Shown: piece after piece, positions 56,689-64,000 of the stretch | How the letters are laid out: the number at the start of each line of letters is the position of its first letter | Position numbering within the stretch: the first letter of the stretch is position 1 | Position numbers and translations under genes: made by a program | Assembly: GCA_023250195.1 (NCBI GenBank) | Contig: JAHFBF010000001.1 | Coordinates: 337,907-401,906 of the forward strand | Source: Candidatus Melainabacteria bacterium | GTDB taxonomy: Bacteria; Cyanobacteriota; Vampirovibrionia; 2-02-FULL-35-15 | Direction of reading: 5' to 3' | Length of the DNA: 64,000 nt | The notes under the pieces: model-generated | The model's input: the letters and a program-made list of their open reading frames with translations, nothing else | Databases searched by the model: none | Told to the model about the DNA's origin: nothing

Positions 56689-56718
56689 CATAGAGGCGCA
56701 GATAATTGCGCCTCTATG
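56689..56718. repeat. Palindrome between the UPF0047 gene and the Cys-rich peptide gene
   Basis: CATAGAGGCGCA and TGCGCCTCTATG perfect arms around GATAAT. The inner 28 bp carry ATAGAG...CTCTAT ends, a variant of the family. It may stop transcription of the minus-strand Cys-rich peptides. Confidence 0.8.
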
Positions 56719-56740: not shown

Positions 56741-56866
56741 CTATTTGCAATTACATGGACTACAGTGACATGGGCTACATGGACATATTCCTGCCTTACA
56801 TGCAACCAGATATCCTCCACCCACAATTGCAAAAGCAATTAACAAAGGTAATATTGCTTTTTTCAT
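56741..56866 (-). CDS. 41-residue Cys-rich lipopeptide, metallothionein-like
   Basis: Too short for usual gene calling. An N-terminal hydrophobic helix ends in a lipobox (LVAC), so the mature peptide would be CKAGICPCSPCHCSPCNCK: 19 residues with seven Cys and one His. GGAGG lies about 9 nt before the ATG, and the start overlaps the stop of the upstream gene as ATGA, so translation is coupled. It should sit in an envelope membrane and bind a soft metal such as Cu(I), Zn or Cd; that is inference from composition. It is divergent from csoR across an operator. Confidence 0.8.
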   Translation of the reverse strand: MKKAILPLLIAFAIVGGGYLVACKAGICPCSPCHCSPCNCK

Positions 56867-57138
56867 TTTTTATTTCCTCCATCTATATAACTTCCACAGC
56901 CACTATGAACAAGTTTGTTACTATATTCAACTTTAGTCTTCTGATCATTCTCCAATGATGAGTAACCAGTCCCACCACAAAAGGATCTTTCAAGTTTTAG
57001 CTCTTCATTTTGTGAGTCTTGGGCAATTCCACAATTATTAGATTTATCTGCACAGCCACATCCACAGGCCAAAACAGAATTGTGCAAGCCAAGAGGACTT
57101 AAAACGATCAGAATTAAAATTGAAATAAATTTATTCAT
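56863..57138 (-). CDS. Small exported Cys-rich protein
   Basis: 91 residues with a signal peptide (FISILILIVLSPLGL, cleavage near SVLA). The mature part begins CGCGCADKSNNCG and has two further Cys in glycine contexts (SFCGGTG, SGCGSY), six in all. No family is recognised; a metal-binding periplasmic protein is likely. First gene of a two-gene unit with the 41-residue lipopeptide, divergent from csoR. Confidence 0.75.
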   Translation of the reverse strand: MNKFISILILIVLSPLGLHNSVLACGCGCADKSNNCGIAQDSQNEELKLERSFCGGTGYSSLENDQKTKVEYSNKLVHSGCGSYIDGGNKK

Positions 57139-57183
57139 AACTTTACTCGCTTCATAAGCATCTGTTTGTATTGTACCCTATAA

Positions 57184-57204
57184 ATACCCCCCTGGGGTGG
57201 GTAT
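57184..57204. promoter_or_regulatory. CsoR-type operator in the divergent promoter region
   Basis: A GC-rich inverted repeat with ATACCC and GGGTAT arms around CCCTGGGG, in otherwise AT-rich DNA. This G/C-tract palindrome is the known type of CsoR/RcnR-family operators. It lies between the Cys-rich peptide unit (minus, start 57138) and csoR (plus, start 57346), 46 bp from the former, so it more likely controls the peptides; csoR may be autoregulated. The rest of 57139-57345 is AT-rich with no other clear site except TATAAT at 57333. Confidence 0.75.
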
Positions 57205-57345
57205 GGGGTTAATTTATAAAAAGTTTAACAATTATAATAACAAAATGACACAGAATAGTTATAGATTTGTTAAATACTATTAATTCTACGGAACTTTGGT
57301 TATTATTTAAGGTATATCAAAGGTTCTGAAGCTATAATAAAAACT

Positions 57346-57621
57346 ATGCTGCATCACCACCCAAAAGTAAAATCTGATGTTCTGAAAAGAATTTCATATA
57401 TTCTTGGACATATAAAAGGCATTCATAAAATGACTGAAGAAGATAAATACTGCATAGATATTGTGAAACAGATTCAGGCCGTTCAATCAGCCTTAAACAA
57501 AGTAACCGAAATCGTATTAGAAGATCACTTAAAAACCTGTGTAAGTCATGCCATAAAAAAAGGCGAGGGACAAAAATTAATTAAAGAAGTAATGGAAACT
57601 ATTAAACAAAAAAAAGTATAG
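57346..57621 (+). CDS. csoR: CsoR-family metal-sensing repressor
   Basis: 91-residue all-helical DNA-binding sensor. VKSDVLKRISYILGHIKGI is the conserved first helix; Cys36 (EDKYCIDIV), His61 and Cys65 (DHLKTCV) give the Cys-His-Cys ligand set of Cu(I)-CsoR at the same positions as in the founding member. The nickel sensor InrS shares this set, and His3-His5 at the N terminus recalls RcnR, so Cu(I) is the best guess but Ni is not excluded. TATAAT ends 7 nt before the ATG with no ribosome site: a leaderless message is likely. A Fur-family gene follows 24 bp later. Confidence 0.9.
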   Translation: MLHHHPKVKSDVLKRISYILGHIKGIHKMTEEDKYCIDIVKQIQAVQSALNKVTEIVLEDHLKTCVSHAIKKGEGQKLIKEVMETIKQKKV

Positions 57622-57645
57622 AAGTCCTTGTATAATTTAACTACG

Positions 57646-58095
57646 ATGTCAGATTATATTAATAAAGCGCTAACAATACTTAAGGAAAATAGTTTTAGAA
57701 TAACTAAACAAAGGCTTTTTGTAATCGAACTTCTGGACAAATCAAAAGAAGCTCTTTCAGCCTATGAAATTAAGGATAAACTTCAGACAAAAAAGCTTGA
57801 CGTGGATGTTGTAAGTATTTATAGAATAATTGACTGTCTTGAAAAAAATGGACTGGTTCATAAAGTTCTTTCAAGCAATAAAGTAAAAAAGTGCAAGCTG
57901 AAGCATGAGGATACTTGTGAGAAACATCAGGATAACCATTGCCATCATCTTTTAATCTGTGAAAAATGTAATTCAGTAGAAGAAATACACTGTGCTGGAA
58001 TTTCTAATGTTATTAAAAAAGTAGAATTTGATTCAAGATTTAAAATCAAAACCCACAACCTGGAATTCCATGGAATATGTAATTCATGTAAATAA
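57646..58095 (+). CDS. Fur-family metalloregulator
   Basis: 149 residues from ATG 57646 (a TTG at 57628 is less likely). Winged-helix half: ILKENSFRITKQRLFVIELL and VDVVSIYRIIDCLEKNGLV. Metal-binding half: HCHHLLICEKCNSVEEIHC and a terminal CNSC, giving two CxxC structural-zinc pairs and a His-rich sensing site. Zur, Fur or Nur cannot be separated by eye; the extra His/Cys (EDTCEKHQDNHCHH) favours Zn or Ni. Two 7-1-7 boxes 160-210 bp downstream, before the first cassette gene, are its probable targets. Confidence 0.9.
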   Translation: MSDYINKALTILKENSFRITKQRLFVIELLDKSKEALSAYEIKDKLQTKKLDVDVVSIYRIIDCLEKNGLVHKVLSSNKVKKCKLKHEDTCEKHQDNHCHHLLICEKCNSVEEIHCAGISNVIKKVEFDSRFKIKTHNLEFHGICNSCK

Positions 58096-58258
58096 TTTTT
58101 AAGTTCCTCTTAATATCAATTTGTTCCAAACAGCACATTTATACCATTTGTGGAAATTAATCTAACACTTCCTGTCATTTCGGAATGACGTGATAAGTCG
58201 GTTTATTTTTCACGTTTGGTATTACTGATAATACATCGAGATTTAGGAGATTTATTAT

Positions 58259-58307
58259 TGCAATATTATTGCATTTACGATAAGATTCTTATTGCAATAA
58301 TATTGAT
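58259..58307. promoter_or_regulatory. Two Fur-family 7-1-7 boxes
   Basis: TGCAATA-T-TATTGCA (58259-58273) is a perfect palindrome; TGCAATA-A-TATTGAT (58293-58307) is a weaker copy 34 bp on. They end 16 bp before the ATG at 58323. The rest of 58096-58258 holds a short GTCATTTCGGAATGAC hairpin at 58174-58189 and nothing else I can name. Confidence 0.65.
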
Positions 58308-58322
58308 ATAAGAACTTTTGAT

Positions 58323-59279
58323 ATGGACGAAATTAATTTAAATCATTCAGGCTGTAGAGGTTGCTCTAATCACCGGGAATTTAAATGTGAGCCTGTAAAA
58401 GATGGTCAAGCAGGTTTAACTACAGAACCTCCTTTGCCACCATTACCTGACAAACCAGCAGAACCTCCTGAACACAAGCCAGCTCCTAAAGCTAAGCAAC
58501 CCAAAAGCTTATTTCCTCTTGAAGAAAAAATTAAAGAATTAAAAGTCAATAATTTTACAAAACAGTTTCTAACTATGATTAGCAATCTCACCCCTGCAAT
58601 CGGTGTTTCTGAGATTACAGGGGCATTTCATGTTGATTCTTTAATTTCATCACCACTTGCCATAAGCTCTATGCATCTTACAAACAGAGGGACAAATAAA
58701 GAACACTTACCTAAATTATTTCTTACAGCACTTAGTTCTATTGGAATTATTTCTGCACAAAAATTTGTAACCTTACCTCGTATACTTATCAGACCCGTTA
58801 TGGCATTAGCTGTTTTCTTCATTGAAAAAAATGGCTCTAAAAAAGAACATGTTCACACTGAAAACTGCAATCACGATCATGACCATGATCATAAAGACAA
58901 AAACATAAAAAAAGAAAATTACGAAATCACAAAATCTGACTGGATTAATCTTGCAAAATTACAAGGACAAATTAATACTGTTCCCTGGTTGGCCAACTTA
59001 TATACTAAAAGACTAAAAGAAATGAATGAATCAAATGACGGTATGATAAATAAATTTTTAGGTAGCATTGGAATATCTGCATTACACATAGCTGGTTTAA
59101 GTTTAGGTTTTGTAGGTCTTGGACATTTAATTGATAAATCACTTGTAGAATTTAAAGTTTTATCTGACAAAGAATCAATTGCAATGAGAGCAGAAGGTGC
59201 TGTTTGTGCCTGTTGTGGAGCTCCTGTATGTGTAGCCGAAGCAGCTTCTGAAGCCGGTGTAATGTCTATTGCTGCGTAA
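58323..59279 (+). CDS. Membrane protein with His-rich and Cys-rich segments (cassette copy 1)
   Basis: 318 residues, no signal peptide. N terminus HSGCRGCSNHREFKC, then a Pro-rich linker, a hydrophobic region (about 75-175) ending RPVMALAVFFIEKNG, a His-rich loop (ENCNHDHDHDHKDKN), a second hydrophobic region (GSIGISALHIAGLSLGFVGL) and a Cys-rich end (GAVCACCGAPVCVAEAASEA). The second half is homologous to the protein at 60449-61807. A metal-binding membrane protein is likely; no family is known to me. Probably controlled by the Fur-family boxes. Confidence 0.7.
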   Translation: MDEINLNHSGCRGCSNHREFKCEPVKDGQAGLTTEPPLPPLPDKPAEPPEHKPAPKAKQPKSLFPLEEKIKELKVNNFTKQFLTMISNLTPAIGVSEITGAFHVDSLISSPLAISSMHLTNRGTNKEHLPKLFLTALSSIGIISAQKFVTLPRILIRPVMALAVFFIEKNGSKKEHVHTENCNHDHDHDHKDKNIKKENYEITKSDWINLAKLQGQINTVPWLANLYTKRLKEMNESNDGMINKFLGSIGISALHIAGLSLGFVGLGHLIDKSLVEFKVLSDKESIAMRAEGAVCACCGAPVCVAEAASEAGVMSIAA

Positions 59280-59348
59280 GTAATTACCTAATTACAAAAA
59301 AAGTGAATCACGCTTTTATAGAAAGCTACAAATGTTAGATTTTTATTC

Positions 59349-60374
59349 ATGGGGTATTATTTTTTAGTTTTTATTTTATCCATAGGTTTATTTTTTACTG
59401 GCTTCAATAACAAAGTCAAAGCTCATCACGGAGGGGAAGGAAGTATTAGTGGTCCTGGAATTGTGGGGCCTATAATAACCATTCCTGCTCTTACATTACC
59501 AAAGGGGACAAAATTTATAACCCTTGGAACGAGTTACACACATTTTGATTCATTTTCAAATGGTGATCTCATAAACCTAGGAAAACAAGGACAAGATGTT
59601 CACACATTTAGAAATATTTTTATTCCGTCTTTATCAGCCGGTTATGGAATCACTAATAATTGGTATTTGACTTTAAATGTACCTTATGTTTTTAAGTTCA
59701 ATCAAAGAGTTAGCGACGGACCACCTATAAATATAGGAAGCTCTATAGGAATAGGTGATATAACTTTTTTCAGTGCTTATAGATTTTTAAGAAAGGAAAA
59801 TATTGGCTTACATGCTTCCTTTCTTTCAGGATTAAAGATTCCAAGCGGTGTAAAACATTTTAGAGATAATCAGGGTGGATTATTCGAAACCGATGATCAA
59901 CCGGGTACTGGTTCATGGGATTCATCTGTAGGATTAGCAGTTACCAAGAGATTTAAATTTTTTTCACTAAGTTCAAATGGATTATATAAATTTTCTACAC
60001 AAGGAACACAACACACATCAGTTGGGGATATTGTTACATTTAACCTGGCAGCAGCTCATAGAGTACATGCTAATGACAAAATAATTAATAAAATCTTTCC
60101 TGAGCACTTCTTTGACAAGGATCTAACATGGGATTTGATTTTTGAAGGGAATGGACAATGGACACAAAAACCAGTAACAAATATTGATGGAATGCATATT
60201 GCAGATGAAAACCATGGAGGTTTAATTATTTATTTATCTCCAGGTATAAGACTACTAATCAACAAAAAATGGATTACTAATTTATCAGTTGGACTTCCTG
60301 TAATTGAAGATTTAAATCATGTACAAAAAGGACCAAACATAAGATTATTACTTAATCTAACAAGAGTTTTTTAA
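59349..60374 (+). CDS. Beta-barrel outer-membrane protein (cassette copy 1)
   Basis: 341 residues with a signal peptide ending KVKAHHGGEG. After it come alternating amphipathic strands (KFITLGTSYTHFDSF, SLSAGYGITNNWYLTLNVPY, IGIGDITFFSAYRF, GLHASFLSGLKIPSG, LSPGIRLLINKKWI) and an aromatic end (LLNLTRVF), as in barrels of the phenol-degradation MetA-like type. Homologous to 61873-63012. The mature N terminus His-His may bind metal. Lies 69 bp after the cassette membrane gene. Confidence 0.8.
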   Translation: MGYYFLVFILSIGLFFTGFNNKVKAHHGGEGSISGPGIVGPIITIPALTLPKGTKFITLGTSYTHFDSFSNGDLINLGKQGQDVHTFRNIFIPSLSAGYGITNNWYLTLNVPYVFKFNQRVSDGPPINIGSSIGIGDITFFSAYRFLRKENIGLHASFLSGLKIPSGVKHFRDNQGGLFETDDQPGTGSWDSSVGLAVTKRFKFFSLSSNGLYKFSTQGTQHTSVGDIVTFNLAAAHRVHANDKIINKIFPEHFFDKDLTWDLIFEGNGQWTQKPVTNIDGMHIADENHGGLIIYLSPGIRLLINKKWITNLSVGLPVIEDLNHVQKGPNIRLLLNLTRVF

Positions 60375-60416
60375 ACCGTAAATCTGTATAGATTACGAGC
60401 AAGAATCCAGAACAAT

Positions 60417-60441
60417 TATAATAGTATAAAAAACTATTATA
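60417..60441. promoter_or_regulatory. Inverted repeat before cassette copy 2
   Basis: TATAATAGT and ACTATTATA, perfect 9-bp arms around 7 bp, ending 7 bp before the ATG at 60449. It could be an operator, or a hairpin at the ribosome site. It differs from the Fur boxes of cassette 1. Confidence 0.55.
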
Positions 60442-60448
60442 GAAGTTT

Positions 60449-61807
60449 ATGATCCAAGCTCCCACTTATTCTAAGCAAAAAGAAACCCTGTTGCCCTTGC
60501 TGAAAACACCTATTTTCAATAGGCCATCGTCAGATAAAAACGGATCTAATAACTCTTCATTAAATACAACTTTTGGACAAGCTGCCGGAACAACTATTGC
60601 TCTTGGGAGTTTAGCCTTAGCAATGCAAACTGCTGTAAAGAACTGGGGAGAAGACTGGCTTTACAAGCCTTTAAGCATGCAGGCAACTATTGGGTTATTT
60701 GGAGCTGCACTTGCAGGGGTTTCATCACAAAATGATCAAAATCCTTTACTCAAGTTATTGAAAATGCCAATGTTTAAAAAACCAGATTTAAATTCAAAGA
60801 AGCTGTGGTATCACAATACCCCTATTGATACAACTATCGGAACAGCCATTGGAGCAGCAAGTGCAATAGGCAGCATTGGGTGGTTAATTCCCAGAGTAGT
60901 TAGAAAGTGGGGAGAAGATGATATTTATAAGCCAATTGCTATGCACTCTTTGCTTGCAGTACTAGGCACATTAATTGCATGCATTTCAAGCAAGGGCAAT
61001 GTACAAACAGATAAAAATAATCAAAATAAGACTCTTGAAGATTACGCATCAAAATTATTTCCTCTTGAAGTTAAAATAAAAAAAGCAATCAATACCGCCT
61101 CTCTTAAAAAACTTGGCATTGACCGTTTCATTAGCAGTATTTCTGCAAAACAAACAATTGTAATGTGCAGTAATCTTTTAATAGCACTTGGCAGCTTAAA
61201 ACTTCTTTTACCGGCTCTCAGTCCATATCTTGCTATCCCGCTTTCACTAGGAGCAATGCAACTTGCAAACAAAGGACTTAAAAATCCAACCAGAATATCT
61301 CTGACTGCAGCCACTGCTGTAGCACTTACACACCTAAAGTCAAGTTATGATATGCCACGCAGCTTAATAAGACCAATCATGGGGTTAGCTGTCTTCTTAA
61401 TTGAAAATTTTAAAGCTAATAAAGGAAATATGAAAACAATAATAACAAAGGACAATCTGTTTGCTCTTGGAAAACTGGAAGCACTCATCAACACTATTCC
61501 TCCCCTATTAAATGTTTTTACAAAAAAAGTACATATTGCAGTCAATGAATCTGAAAATCCTCTTTCAAGATTTTTTGGCAACATCGGTGTTTTTACATCT
61601 GAAATAGTTGGTCTTAGCGCAGGATTTGTTGCTGCAGGAAAATTTCTTGATACAATGTTTGCGAAATTCAATCTCTGTAAGATGGATTCCCCAACAAGGC
61701 TTGAAGGAGTCCTAATTTTCCCAACCTGTCCATTAGCACAAGTTGCAGAAGTGGCAGAAGCTTCAAGCGCTGGATTCTCAGCAGTACACGCTGGAATGGC
61801 ACACTAA
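60449..61807 (+). CDS. Membrane protein with tandem repeats (cassette copy 2)
   Basis: 452 residues. Residues about 10-95 and about 105-180 are a tandem repeat: each has a LLKxPxF start, a T-rich hydrophobic stretch and KNWGEDWLYKPLSMQ or RKWGEDDIYKPIAMH, ending in a small-residue helix. The rest matches cassette copy 1: KLFPLEVKIKKA, SLIRPIMGLAVFLIE, GNIGVFTSEIVGLSAGFVAAG and a C-terminal TRLEGVLIFPTCPLAQVAEVAE. It lacks the His-rich loop of copy 1. Unknown family, likely inner membrane. Confidence 0.7.
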   Translation: MIQAPTYSKQKETLLPLLKTPIFNRPSSDKNGSNNSSLNTTFGQAAGTTIALGSLALAMQTAVKNWGEDWLYKPLSMQATIGLFGAALAGVSSQNDQNPLLKLLKMPMFKKPDLNSKKLWYHNTPIDTTIGTAIGAASAIGSIGWLIPRVVRKWGEDDIYKPIAMHSLLAVLGTLIACISSKGNVQTDKNNQNKTLEDYASKLFPLEVKIKKAINTASLKKLGIDRFISSISAKQTIVMCSNLLIALGSLKLLLPALSPYLAIPLSLGAMQLANKGLKNPTRISLTAATAVALTHLKSSYDMPRSLIRPIMGLAVFLIENFKANKGNMKTIITKDNLFALGKLEALINTIPPLLNVFTKKVHIAVNESENPLSRFFGNIGVFTSEIVGLSAGFVAAGKFLDTMFAKFNLCKMDSPTRLEGVLIFPTCPLAQVAEVAEASSAGFSAVHAGMAH

Positions 61808-61872
61808 TAAAATAAGCTAAATACTTACTAAATTACAAAGAATCAGAAACACAAATTTCTACATATATTGAA

Positions 61873-63012
61873 ATGTTAGGATTTATACCTATGTTTAATT
61901 GGCTATTAGCTATCATCCTTATATTTTCATTCTGCATTAGCAAAGCAAAAGCACACCATAATCCTACATTTGGCTTCGCTGGAACTGCAGGACCAATATT
62001 AACTAATCCAGCTTCAACAATACCCAAAGGACACTGGGGAGTTGGAATAAGAACTGAATATGTAAACTTTAACGAACTTTCAACAGGTGCTCTAAAATAT
62101 TTTGCAAAGAAAAAAGAGTTTATTCATAGTGGACAATATTTTTTAAGCCCTTCAATTGGAGCTGCTTATGGATTAACTGACAATTTTACAGTTGCTTTGA
62201 GACTTCCTTACAGTGTCCAGGGTAATATAACTGATGGACTCCTAAGTAAAACCGGAATGCCTTACCTTTCTAGATTAGGAAGCTCAGATGGACTTGGAGA
62301 CATAACTCTTTTTGCTCAATATCGTTTCTTAAATTTAAAAGATAAGGCTTTTGAAGCAGCATTGCTCTCCGGGATTACTATTCCATCAGGATTAGCTCAT
62401 GTAAAAGATAAACTTGGGGACAGGTTTGGTGCTGATCATCAACCAAGTAAAAGAGCTTTTGAACCACTTGTCGGTTTATCGATTACTAAACGCTTTGGAC
62501 ATCGTTTGTCTTTTGATACAAATTATCTCTTTACAAAAGCAGTAAAAGGAATTCAAAATTTTTATCCTGGAGATCTTCATAATTATAATCTGGCTCTTTC
62601 ATATAGATTTTTGGAGCAACATCACCACCACCATAACCATTCTGAAGAGCTCCCTGAGCATTCTCATATTCACTTACATGAACATGGTTATGGAGCACCT
62701 ATTGAAGAGTATAAATTTTCTCACTCTCATAAGCATGAACACAAGTGGTATTCAATTTTTGGTGTCGATGGAATTATCGAGTTAAACGGAGAATGGAGAC
62801 AAAAGCAGGTTTTTGGTACAAGACAGCCATTTGGATTTAAAGATGAAAATAATGGTGGTAGTTTTATATATGTTTCTCCCGGCCTGCGTTTAGCAATTGG
62901 TGAAAAATGGGCTACATATTTTTCATTTGGTATACCTACAATTTCTGCTCCCATGGGAAAAGGACAGAAGCCTGATTTCAGGATGATTTGTGGAATCAGC
63001 AGATCATTTTAA
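61873..63012 (+). CDS. Beta-barrel outer-membrane protein with His-rich loop (cassette copy 2)
   Basis: 379 residues with a signal peptide (LLAIILIFSFCISKAKA) and mature start HHNPTFGFAGTAGPILTNPA. The barrel strands follow copy 1 (GIRTEYVNFNELSTG, SPSIGAAYGLTDNFTVALRL, GLGDITLFAQYRFL, LLSGITIPSGLAHVKD, VSPGLRLAIGEKWATYF). A large loop near residues 250-295 is extremely His-rich (HHHHHNHSEELPEHSHIHLH, then SHSHKHEHK), absent from copy 1. It would bind Zn, Ni, Co or Cu at the surface. ATG 61891 is an alternative start. Confidence 0.82.
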   Translation: MLGFIPMFNWLLAIILIFSFCISKAKAHHNPTFGFAGTAGPILTNPASTIPKGHWGVGIRTEYVNFNELSTGALKYFAKKKEFIHSGQYFLSPSIGAAYGLTDNFTVALRLPYSVQGNITDGLLSKTGMPYLSRLGSSDGLGDITLFAQYRFLNLKDKAFEAALLSGITIPSGLAHVKDKLGDRFGADHQPSKRAFEPLVGLSITKRFGHRLSFDTNYLFTKAVKGIQNFYPGDLHNYNLALSYRFLEQHHHHHNHSEELPEHSHIHLHEHGYGAPIEEYKFSHSHKHEHKWYSIFGVDGIIELNGEWRQKQVFGTRQPFGFKDENNGGSFIYVSPGLRLAIGEKWATYFSFGIPTISAPMGKGQKPDFRMICGISRSF

Positions 63013-63014
63013 TT

Positions 63015-64000
63015 TTATGAAGGCCATATACTCATGTTAAAAGCTCTCTCTACAAACCAGATAAAAGCAAGAATGGTAATAGCAACTGATCCTCCTATAA
63101 GAACCACCTTTTGATATATAAGTGAACTACGAAGTTTATATGCAATTGGTAAAAATGCAAGGACAATTGCCATCTGTCCGATTTCAACACCAAGATTAAA
63201 ACTAAAAAGAGAAACTAAAAGTGATTCTTTAGGTAATCCTATATCCATTAGAGCACTTGCAAATCCAAAACCATGTATAAGCCCAAAACAATAAGCAGCA
63301 ATCCATCGTCCATCCTTTAAAACAGGAAAAATATTATTAACTGCAGCAAGAATTACAGAAGCTGCAATTAAAGATTCTACAAGCCTGGACGGCAATTGGA
63401 TAAAACCTAAAACCGCCAGACTAAGCGTTACAGAATGAGCAAGTGTAAAAGCAGTAACTACCTCAAAAACACTTCGAAAGGCTGATTTAAAATTATTTAC
63501 GGGCTCCCACTGATTATTTTTTCTTATAAGCACTGAGGGTAAAAGCAATGCAAGCAAAAATAAAATATGATCAAACCCAATCCAGATATGCCATATTCCT
63601 TCAGCGCAAAAATCAAAAAACTGACGCAAAAAAGTTAATTTATTTAAATCAAAATGCTGAACTTGTTTATCAGGACTAAAAATCGAGGTGAGCGTTTTCC
63701 CTTTATGCTGAATACTTAATAAGCCGCGATGCTGTGGATCAATATCAAAAAATAAACTGTAATCCAAATCAAAAACTTTTGGTATTTTATCTTTCCCGGG
63801 ACAATCTATTAGAAACCGCAGAATCGTATAAGCACCATCGCTGTGATTATCTACAAGCTGCTCAGTTAGGTGATTAATACAATACCCATCACTGGTTTTC
63901 ATCTTAAAATGGCTAAGAGCATATTCTGCAATTCTTTTGTGATTATCACGTAGCTCACGCCAGGTAATTATTCCATCGTTGTTTTTATCTATTCCAATTG
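63015..64000 (-). CDS. HupE/UreJ-type membrane protein with an EF-hand-like N-terminal segment (5' end beyond window)
   Basis: The frame is open to the window edge, so the start lies outside. Visible order: an EF-hand loop DKNNDGIITWREL, a soluble domain of about 110 residues (VFDLDYSLFFDIDPQHRGLL), then six or seven helices with IWIGFDHILFLLALLLPS, FTLAHSVTLSLAV, FGLIHGFGFASAL and FSFNLGVEIGQMAIV. These are HupE/UreJ_2 motifs with helix His/Asp that could carry nickel or cobalt. A shorter protein from the ATG at 63902 is possible but would cut the EF-hand. It converges with the copy 2 barrel gene, 2 bp apart. Confidence 0.88.
   Translation of the reverse strand, partial: IGIDKNNDGIITWRELRDNHKRIAEYALSHFKMKTSDGYCINHLTEQLVDNHSDGAYTILRFLIDCPGKDKIPKVFDLDYSLFFDIDPQHRGLLSIQHKGKTLTSIFSPDKQVQHFDLNKLTFLRQFFDFCAEGIWHIWIGFDHILFLLALLLPSVLIRKNNQWEPVNNFKSAFRSVFEVVTAFTLAHSVTLSLAVLGFIQLPSRLVESLIAASVILAAVNNIFPVLKDGRWIAAYCFGLIHGFGFASALMDIGLPKESLLVSLFSFNLGVEIGQMAIVLAFLPIAYKLRSSLIYQKVVLIGGSVAITILAFIWFVERAFNMSIWPS

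Follow-up and report, generated by a model that had tools for sequence, protein, structure and literature searches.

Positions 56741-63012 of the DNA analysed here could well be a homeostasis locus for soft metals (Cu and Zn), a judgement that we regard as evenly balanced, with two sensors placed around a new protein family, termed P, and with a neighbouring HupE-like gene lying outside it. The window, meaning the whole 64,000-nucleotide stretch, spans positions 337907-401906 of one contig from a 2.2-Mb genome (G000; other G numbers denote compared genomes, and L numbers compared loci). The host lineage consists of non-photosynthetic relatives of cyanobacteria, and the relatives with named records are 'Candidatus Melainabacteria' MAGs, several of which bear groundwater names. 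A literature search on Melainabacteria and metals gave nothing relevant. From 56741 onwards, two peptide genes on the minus strand are followed on the plus strand by the genes of a CsoR-type regulator, a Fur-type regulator, P58323, an outer-membrane barrel, P60449 and a second barrel. After the latter comes the HupE-like gene on the minus strand, which extends beyond the window end. No RNA families were found at the locus. The features are as follows.

56689..56718, minus strand: intrinsic-terminator-like hairpin of 12 pairs, just 3' of the Cys-peptide genes (a consensus match only)
56741..56866, minus strand: 41-aa exported Cys-rich microprotein MKKAILPLLIAFAIVGGGYLVACKAGICPCSPCHCSPCNCK, an open reading frame with six relatives beside P
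56863..57138, minus strand: 91-aa exported Cys-rich peptide, with CGCGC at the predicted mature N terminus
57184..57204, no strand: putative CsoR-type operator ATACCCCCCTGGGGTGGGTAT, a GC palindrome between the peptide genes and csoR
57346..57621, plus strand: CsoR-family repressor (PF02583, 93.6 bits, cut-off 22.8, E 1e-26)
57628..58095, plus strand: Fur-family regulator with Zur-like ligands (PF01475, 62.9 bits, cut-off 23.1, E 4e-17)
58259..58273, no strand: putative Fur-type operator box 1 TGCAATATTATTGCA, a perfect 7-1-7 palindrome, also in G002 (L018) and G005 (L022)
58293..58307, no strand: putative Fur-type operator box 2 TGCAATAATATTGAT, degenerate, overlapping a possible -10
58323..59279, plus strand: P58323, helical protein of the new family, with Cys/His clusters at the N terminus, in a loop and at the C terminus
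59349..60374, plus strand: outer-membrane barrel type I (PF13557), mature N terminus starting HHGG
60449..61807, plus strand: P60449, diverged P paralogue that has lost nearly all of the conserved Cys/His clusters
61873..63012, plus strand: outer-membrane barrel type II (PF13557), His-rich loop at residues 248-295

The P family and its partner barrels

Library searches placed P in no described family. Neither Pfam nor NCBIfam gave a match above chance (none in Pfam at E<=1 for P58323), no PDB sequence matched, and the low-confidence model found no fold match in the PDB. This model (pLDDT 59, poor) shows some six helices, the fourth of which is followed by a His-rich loop. In this layout the P model roughly resembles CDF zinc exporters, but in nothing else: P58323 has no Pfam match at E<=1 that would place it among the CDF transporters, the model has no fold match, and P is weakly hydrophobic. 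Hydropathy of P is modest, with few segments above a mean of 1.6 and almost none in the second family. Membrane insertion is plausible from the sequence, but the label 'membrane protein' is unproven because of this weak hydrophobicity. Of the originally predicted two diverged copies of an unknown membrane protein, the two copies and the lack of a known family stand, and the membrane nature is no more than plausible.

In P58323 the clusters comprise C11, C14, H17 and C22, a CNHDHDHD stretch from residue 182 and CACCGAPVC at 295-303. Three features recur across the family: Cys and His clustered at the N terminus, a loop rich in His behind the fourth helix, and the motif CxCCGxPVC at the C terminus. 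Most first-family P proteins carry the N-terminal motif HxxHDGxCxxxxC..HxHT..C, of which P58323 keeps a reduced set, together with the rest. Within CxCCGxPxC, the first Cys is present in 15/16 P proteins and the third in 16/16. P60449, 30% identical to P58323 (E 1e-29), has an extra N terminus made of two ~90-aa repeats that share 38% identity (they score 159, and the best of 500 shuffles scored 49); a search with P60449 revealed no further copy of these repeats (60449-61050) in G000.

The survey covered class and phylum samples plus both P-bearing families. P occurs in 8/11 genomes of the source family and in 7/9 of a second 'Ca. Melainabacteria' family of the same class. Outside these two families, no credible match was found among 386 genomes sampled across the phylum; one in G266 (E 2e-5), which lies within a frame of 1368 aa, was judged spurious. 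Plasmids yielded no P, and for the barrel only weak 'transporter' matches.

Both barrels pass the PF13557 cut-off of 22 (29.4 and 26.6 bits) and are 34% identical to each other (E 2e-62). The type II model (pLDDT 62) matched FapF and the COG4313 channel 4rl8 in Foldseek at E 9e-10 to 5e-9. These barrels resemble the COG4313/PF13557 channels (Pput2725, 4rl8; FapF, 5o65) in the Pfam cut-off passed, in the fold match at E 9e-10 and in a 12-strand-type barrel, the strand number being our interpretation of a model for which 13-14 longer strand elements are listed. In the literature, known members of this group are tied to hydrophobic solutes or amyloid export, not to metals. The barrels here differ from the known COG4313 members by a His/Cys-bearing mature N terminus, which recurs in the aligned barrels, also in L063 and L064, and in type II by the His-rich loop. 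With strands counted from tight turns in the low-confidence model, this loop (248-295) would lie on the periplasmic side, like the mature N terminus. Elsewhere in G000, a third barrel, 72% identical to that at 59349, stands beside a Czc/P-ATPase island. This metal-resistance island (L025 277-10913; G000:C6, about 612.8-623.4 kb) encodes MerC-like, thioredoxin-like and ArsR-type proteins, OMF, MFP, CzcA and a Cd/Zn P-type ATPase, and the third barrel is convergent at its end.

The identities of the P proteins (30%) and of the barrels (34%) confirm the predicted duplicated cassette of P and outer-membrane barrel. The His-rich stretches described for the copy-1 P and the copy-2 barrel are also real: by His density in the 64 kb, the copy-2 barrel ranks first (11/30 residues), and the Fur-type protein and P58323 tie for second. 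The original prediction had further proposed that the metal-capturing role was split after duplication. This was rejected, since P and barrel of G006 are both His-rich and the P and barrel trees are discordant. The G006 barrel is an orthologue of the copy-2 barrel (69%) with the same His loop, and the G006 P has the longest His loop in the family. In the trees, P58323 pairs with the G002 P, but its barrel pairs with the same-genome paralogue; barrel 61873 pairs with the G006 barrel, and P60449 does not pair with the G006 P, its position being unsure because of a long branch. From these sequences, the cassettes look mixed and matched rather than simply duplicated with split labour.

Two sensors, their putative operators and the Cys-rich peptides

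The predicted CsoR-type regulator was confirmed by its PF02583 match. Its alignment to M. tuberculosis CsoR (2hh7) is gapless, and residues C36-H61-C65, Y35 and E81 make up the Cu(I) fingerprint, that is, X-Y-Z ligands Cys-His-Cys with second-shell Tyr and Glu (PMC4235346). The same source cautions against deducing the metal from the ligand pattern alone, and reports that the Tyr, here Tyr35, marks Cu(I) sensors and is missing in the nickel sensor InrS (PMC4235346). CsoR also has N-terminal histidines, like InrS. Equivalents of the CsoR-type operator lie upstream of csoR in G003 and G009 (L016, L019). The mycobacterial RicR copper regulon includes the metallothionein MymT. Mycobacterial RicR/CsoR copper regulons resemble the present locus in a CsoR-family sensor with the C-H-C-(Y-E) fingerprint, in a GC-rich palindrome and in a small Cys-rich peptide nearby, which here is putatively metal-binding; by comparison, the peptides here have signal sequences and no family match, and csoR and a Fur-type gene form a tandem.

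The two exported Cys-rich peptides are present as predicted, with signal-like N termini and CxC clusters, and their genes overlap by 4 bases. Six relatives of the 41-aa peptide adjoin P in five other genomes (G002, G003, G005, G009 twice, G010), and all seven share a signal-like N terminus and the pattern CxC...CxCxxCxC; including G000, such a ~41-aa CxC peptide is found near P in 6/8 first-family genomes. It had no Pfam or NCBIfam match, hence no match that would assign it to the bacterial metallothioneins. Homologues of the 91-aa peptide were found by phmmer in L018 and L019, and L022 has a similar peptide of 89 aa.

The Fur-type regulator, likewise confirmed (PF01475), carries the ligand set H78, C89, C111, C114, E119, C151 and C154. 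In E. coli Zur, the sensory ligands are H77, C88, H96 and E111, plus two CxxC. On alignment to E. coli Zur (4mtd), H78, C89, E119, C111/C114 and C151/C154 correspond, and the H96 position falls in a gapped His-rich stretch; the H and C positions agree with Zur, not with the co-aligned Fur (9ire). The best NCBIfam match is Zur at 83.8 bits, below the equivalog cut-off of 167, and we therefore name the protein only 'Zur-like'. An orthologue (at least 73%) exists in exactly G000, G002 and G005, the same genomes that have a TGCAA-N5-TTGCA pair upstream of P. The two boxes are 34 bp apart in G000 and G002 (L018) and 44 bp in G005 (L022), and in the window a possible -10 (AATAAT, 58296-58301) lies inside box 2. 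Single TGCAA-N5-TTGCA matches carry little weight, because they occur 1-8 times per genome (6, 5 and 8 in those three), mostly away from P; the paired, positioned sites are the evidence. The core also resembles the nickel Nur box, a likeness set aside because the regulator ligands are Zur-like.

Neighbourhoods of P in relatives

In the first family, CsoR is encoded near P in G000, G003 and G009, the Fur-type orthologue in G000, G002 and G005, and a PF13557 barrel in G000, G002, G003 and G006. Over both families, the barrel lies near P in six genomes, and a Zur-like Fur gene also in six. OMF-MFP-CzcA genes are found near P in G003, G005 and G009, with CzcA above the TIGR00914 cut-off, and the order csoR, P, CzcCBA is seen in G003 and G009. 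Neither sensor adjoins P in G004, G006 and G010, and G004 and one of the two P genes of G013 have no metal neighbours.

In the second family, the arrangements are HisI-FolE2-P-barrel (G018, G042), HisI-FolE2-P (G046) and P near a Zur-like Fur gene (G028, G033, G023). G033 has a ZigA-type GTPase, and G023 has FolE1, a ZigA-like GTPase and a MerC-like protein, the last recognised by eye without a Pfam match. The ZigA-type COG0523 GTPase in L066 scores 617.7 bits (cut-off 600). COG0523 GTPases, FolE2 and HisI paralogues occur in Zur regulons (Haas et al. 2009, PMC2770081). The link from HisI/FolE2 to Zur is suggestive only, because HisI is single-copy and FolE1 is absent in most second-family genomes, which weakens the idea that these genes are zinc-starvation paralogues there. 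In three second-family genomes, a large protein of 623-801 aa is encoded between P and the Zur-like gene (L065 9877-11748, L066 6675-8684, L110 4069-6474); the L065 copy, searched against Pfam, belongs to no family.

Zur regulons with COG0523/YciC/ZigA, FolE2 and HisI resemble these loci in the Zur-like Fur protein, in the 7-1-7 palindrome and, for the second family, in the ZigA/FolE neighbours (PMC2770081). They differ in that the genes under putative control here are P and a COG4313 barrel rather than ZnuABC or a TonB receptor, in a genome without ZnuA: PF01297 was not found in G000, and is present in 11/14 control genomes. Since metal genes also neighbour the P relatives in other genomes, the grouping goes beyond chance. 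Profile searches and neighbourhoods together uphold the original prediction of a metal-handling island around a P of no described family, with a metal-gene neighbour set that recurs in other genomes.

The HupE/UreJ-type gene is present where it had been placed (HupE_UreJ_2, 164.9 bits). It is the last gene of a DUF4331-TPR-HupE_UreJ_2 operon on the opposite strand (L004 6922-10863), which starts in the window at 63015. DUF4331, TPR and HupE_UreJ_2 genes are also near P in G006, and HupE adjoins P or barrel in these two of the eight first-family genomes; in the genus-mate G002 the next flank genes directly follow the barrel, with no HupE. Against the nickel permease family PF04955 it scores 22.7 and 22.2 bits, below the cut-off of 23, and it does match PF13795. 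Further downstream (L004 13652-19900), very large Cys-rich proteins with EGF-like repeats are encoded.

A putative model and its alternatives

The best-supported division of the locus is a copper circuit, consisting of CsoR and the secreted peptides, and a zinc-type circuit, consisting of the Zur-like protein, P and the barrel. Copper would release CsoR, and the secreted peptides, thereby induced, would chelate metal. In the other circuit, P and the barrel would be induced once the Zur-like repressor loses its Zn(II). P would be a helical, membrane-associated protein facing the cytosol, whose Cys/His clusters at both termini and in the loop bind metal, either to hand it over or to buffer it. 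The barrel would serve as an outer-membrane pore with its metal-binding ends in the periplasm, and the second pair would be a diverged paralogue whose P is devoid of these clusters. Of the metals originally considered (Ni, Co, Zn, Cu), copper is favoured by the CsoR fingerprint and zinc by the Zur-like ligands and the ZigA/FolE context, but nickel and cobalt found little support.

The missing ZnuA leaves room for P and barrel in zinc acquisition. It is possible, if rather unlikely, that P and the COG4313-type barrel each supply one half of an undescribed transporter that moves metal across the envelope, replaces ZnuABC in this lineage of non-photosynthetic cyanobacterial relatives and is switched by a Cu or Zn sensor. 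On import versus efflux, the presence of CzcA near P in three relatives points to efflux, and the csoR-P-CzcCBA order suggests a response to metal excess, not zinc limitation. As an efflux accessory, P would pass surplus Cu/Zn from the cytosol to a pump of the RND kind (CzcCBA/Cus-type), with the barrel as outer-membrane exit or accessory, and the locus would answer metal excess. The CzcA, OMF and MFP genes adjoining P, the csoR-P tandem and the 72% barrel paralogue, which ends convergently on an ArsR-MerC-CzcCBA-ZntA-like island, all favour this role. However, no RND pump adjoins the locus in the window or in G002, where the regulator upstream of P is Zur-like and such regulators normally repress when metal is plentiful, and the second-family context is one of zinc limitation or zinc allocation, so that we hold the accessory role possible but doubtful.

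Alternatively, P and the peptides might bind and retain metal in cytosol and periplasm rather than transport it, and the barrel might be a general solute channel. The dense Cys/His clusters of P and peptides, the weak hydropathy of P and the non-metal literature on PF13557/COG4313 channels fit such a store or buffer, which is nevertheless unlikely given that the barrel accompanies P across two families and that aligned members bear His/Cys at the mature N terminus. Far less probable is the path first put forward, in which barrel, P and HupE would carry Ni/Co across the envelope. Although the HupE-like gene adjoins the second barrel in G000 and G006 and the CsoR histidines recall InrS, HupE is part of the DUF4331-TPR-HupE operon on the opposite strand, is not beside P in 6/8 genomes and misses the PF04955 cut-off, and CsoR has the Tyr35 that InrS lacks. 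The separate operon and Tyr35 ruled out this path as the main reading, and HupE was accordingly dropped from the proposed path.

In summary, four kinds of library gave no match to P, and the genes around it link it to the control of copper and zinc in two families of a lineage without cultures. If P and the barrel carry metal across the envelope, they would constitute a transport route that is now unrecognised in annotation, and the ~41-aa secreted CxC peptide would represent an exported metal chelator of a new class, so small that gene callers could miss it. At minimum, an unannotated protein family gains a testable function.
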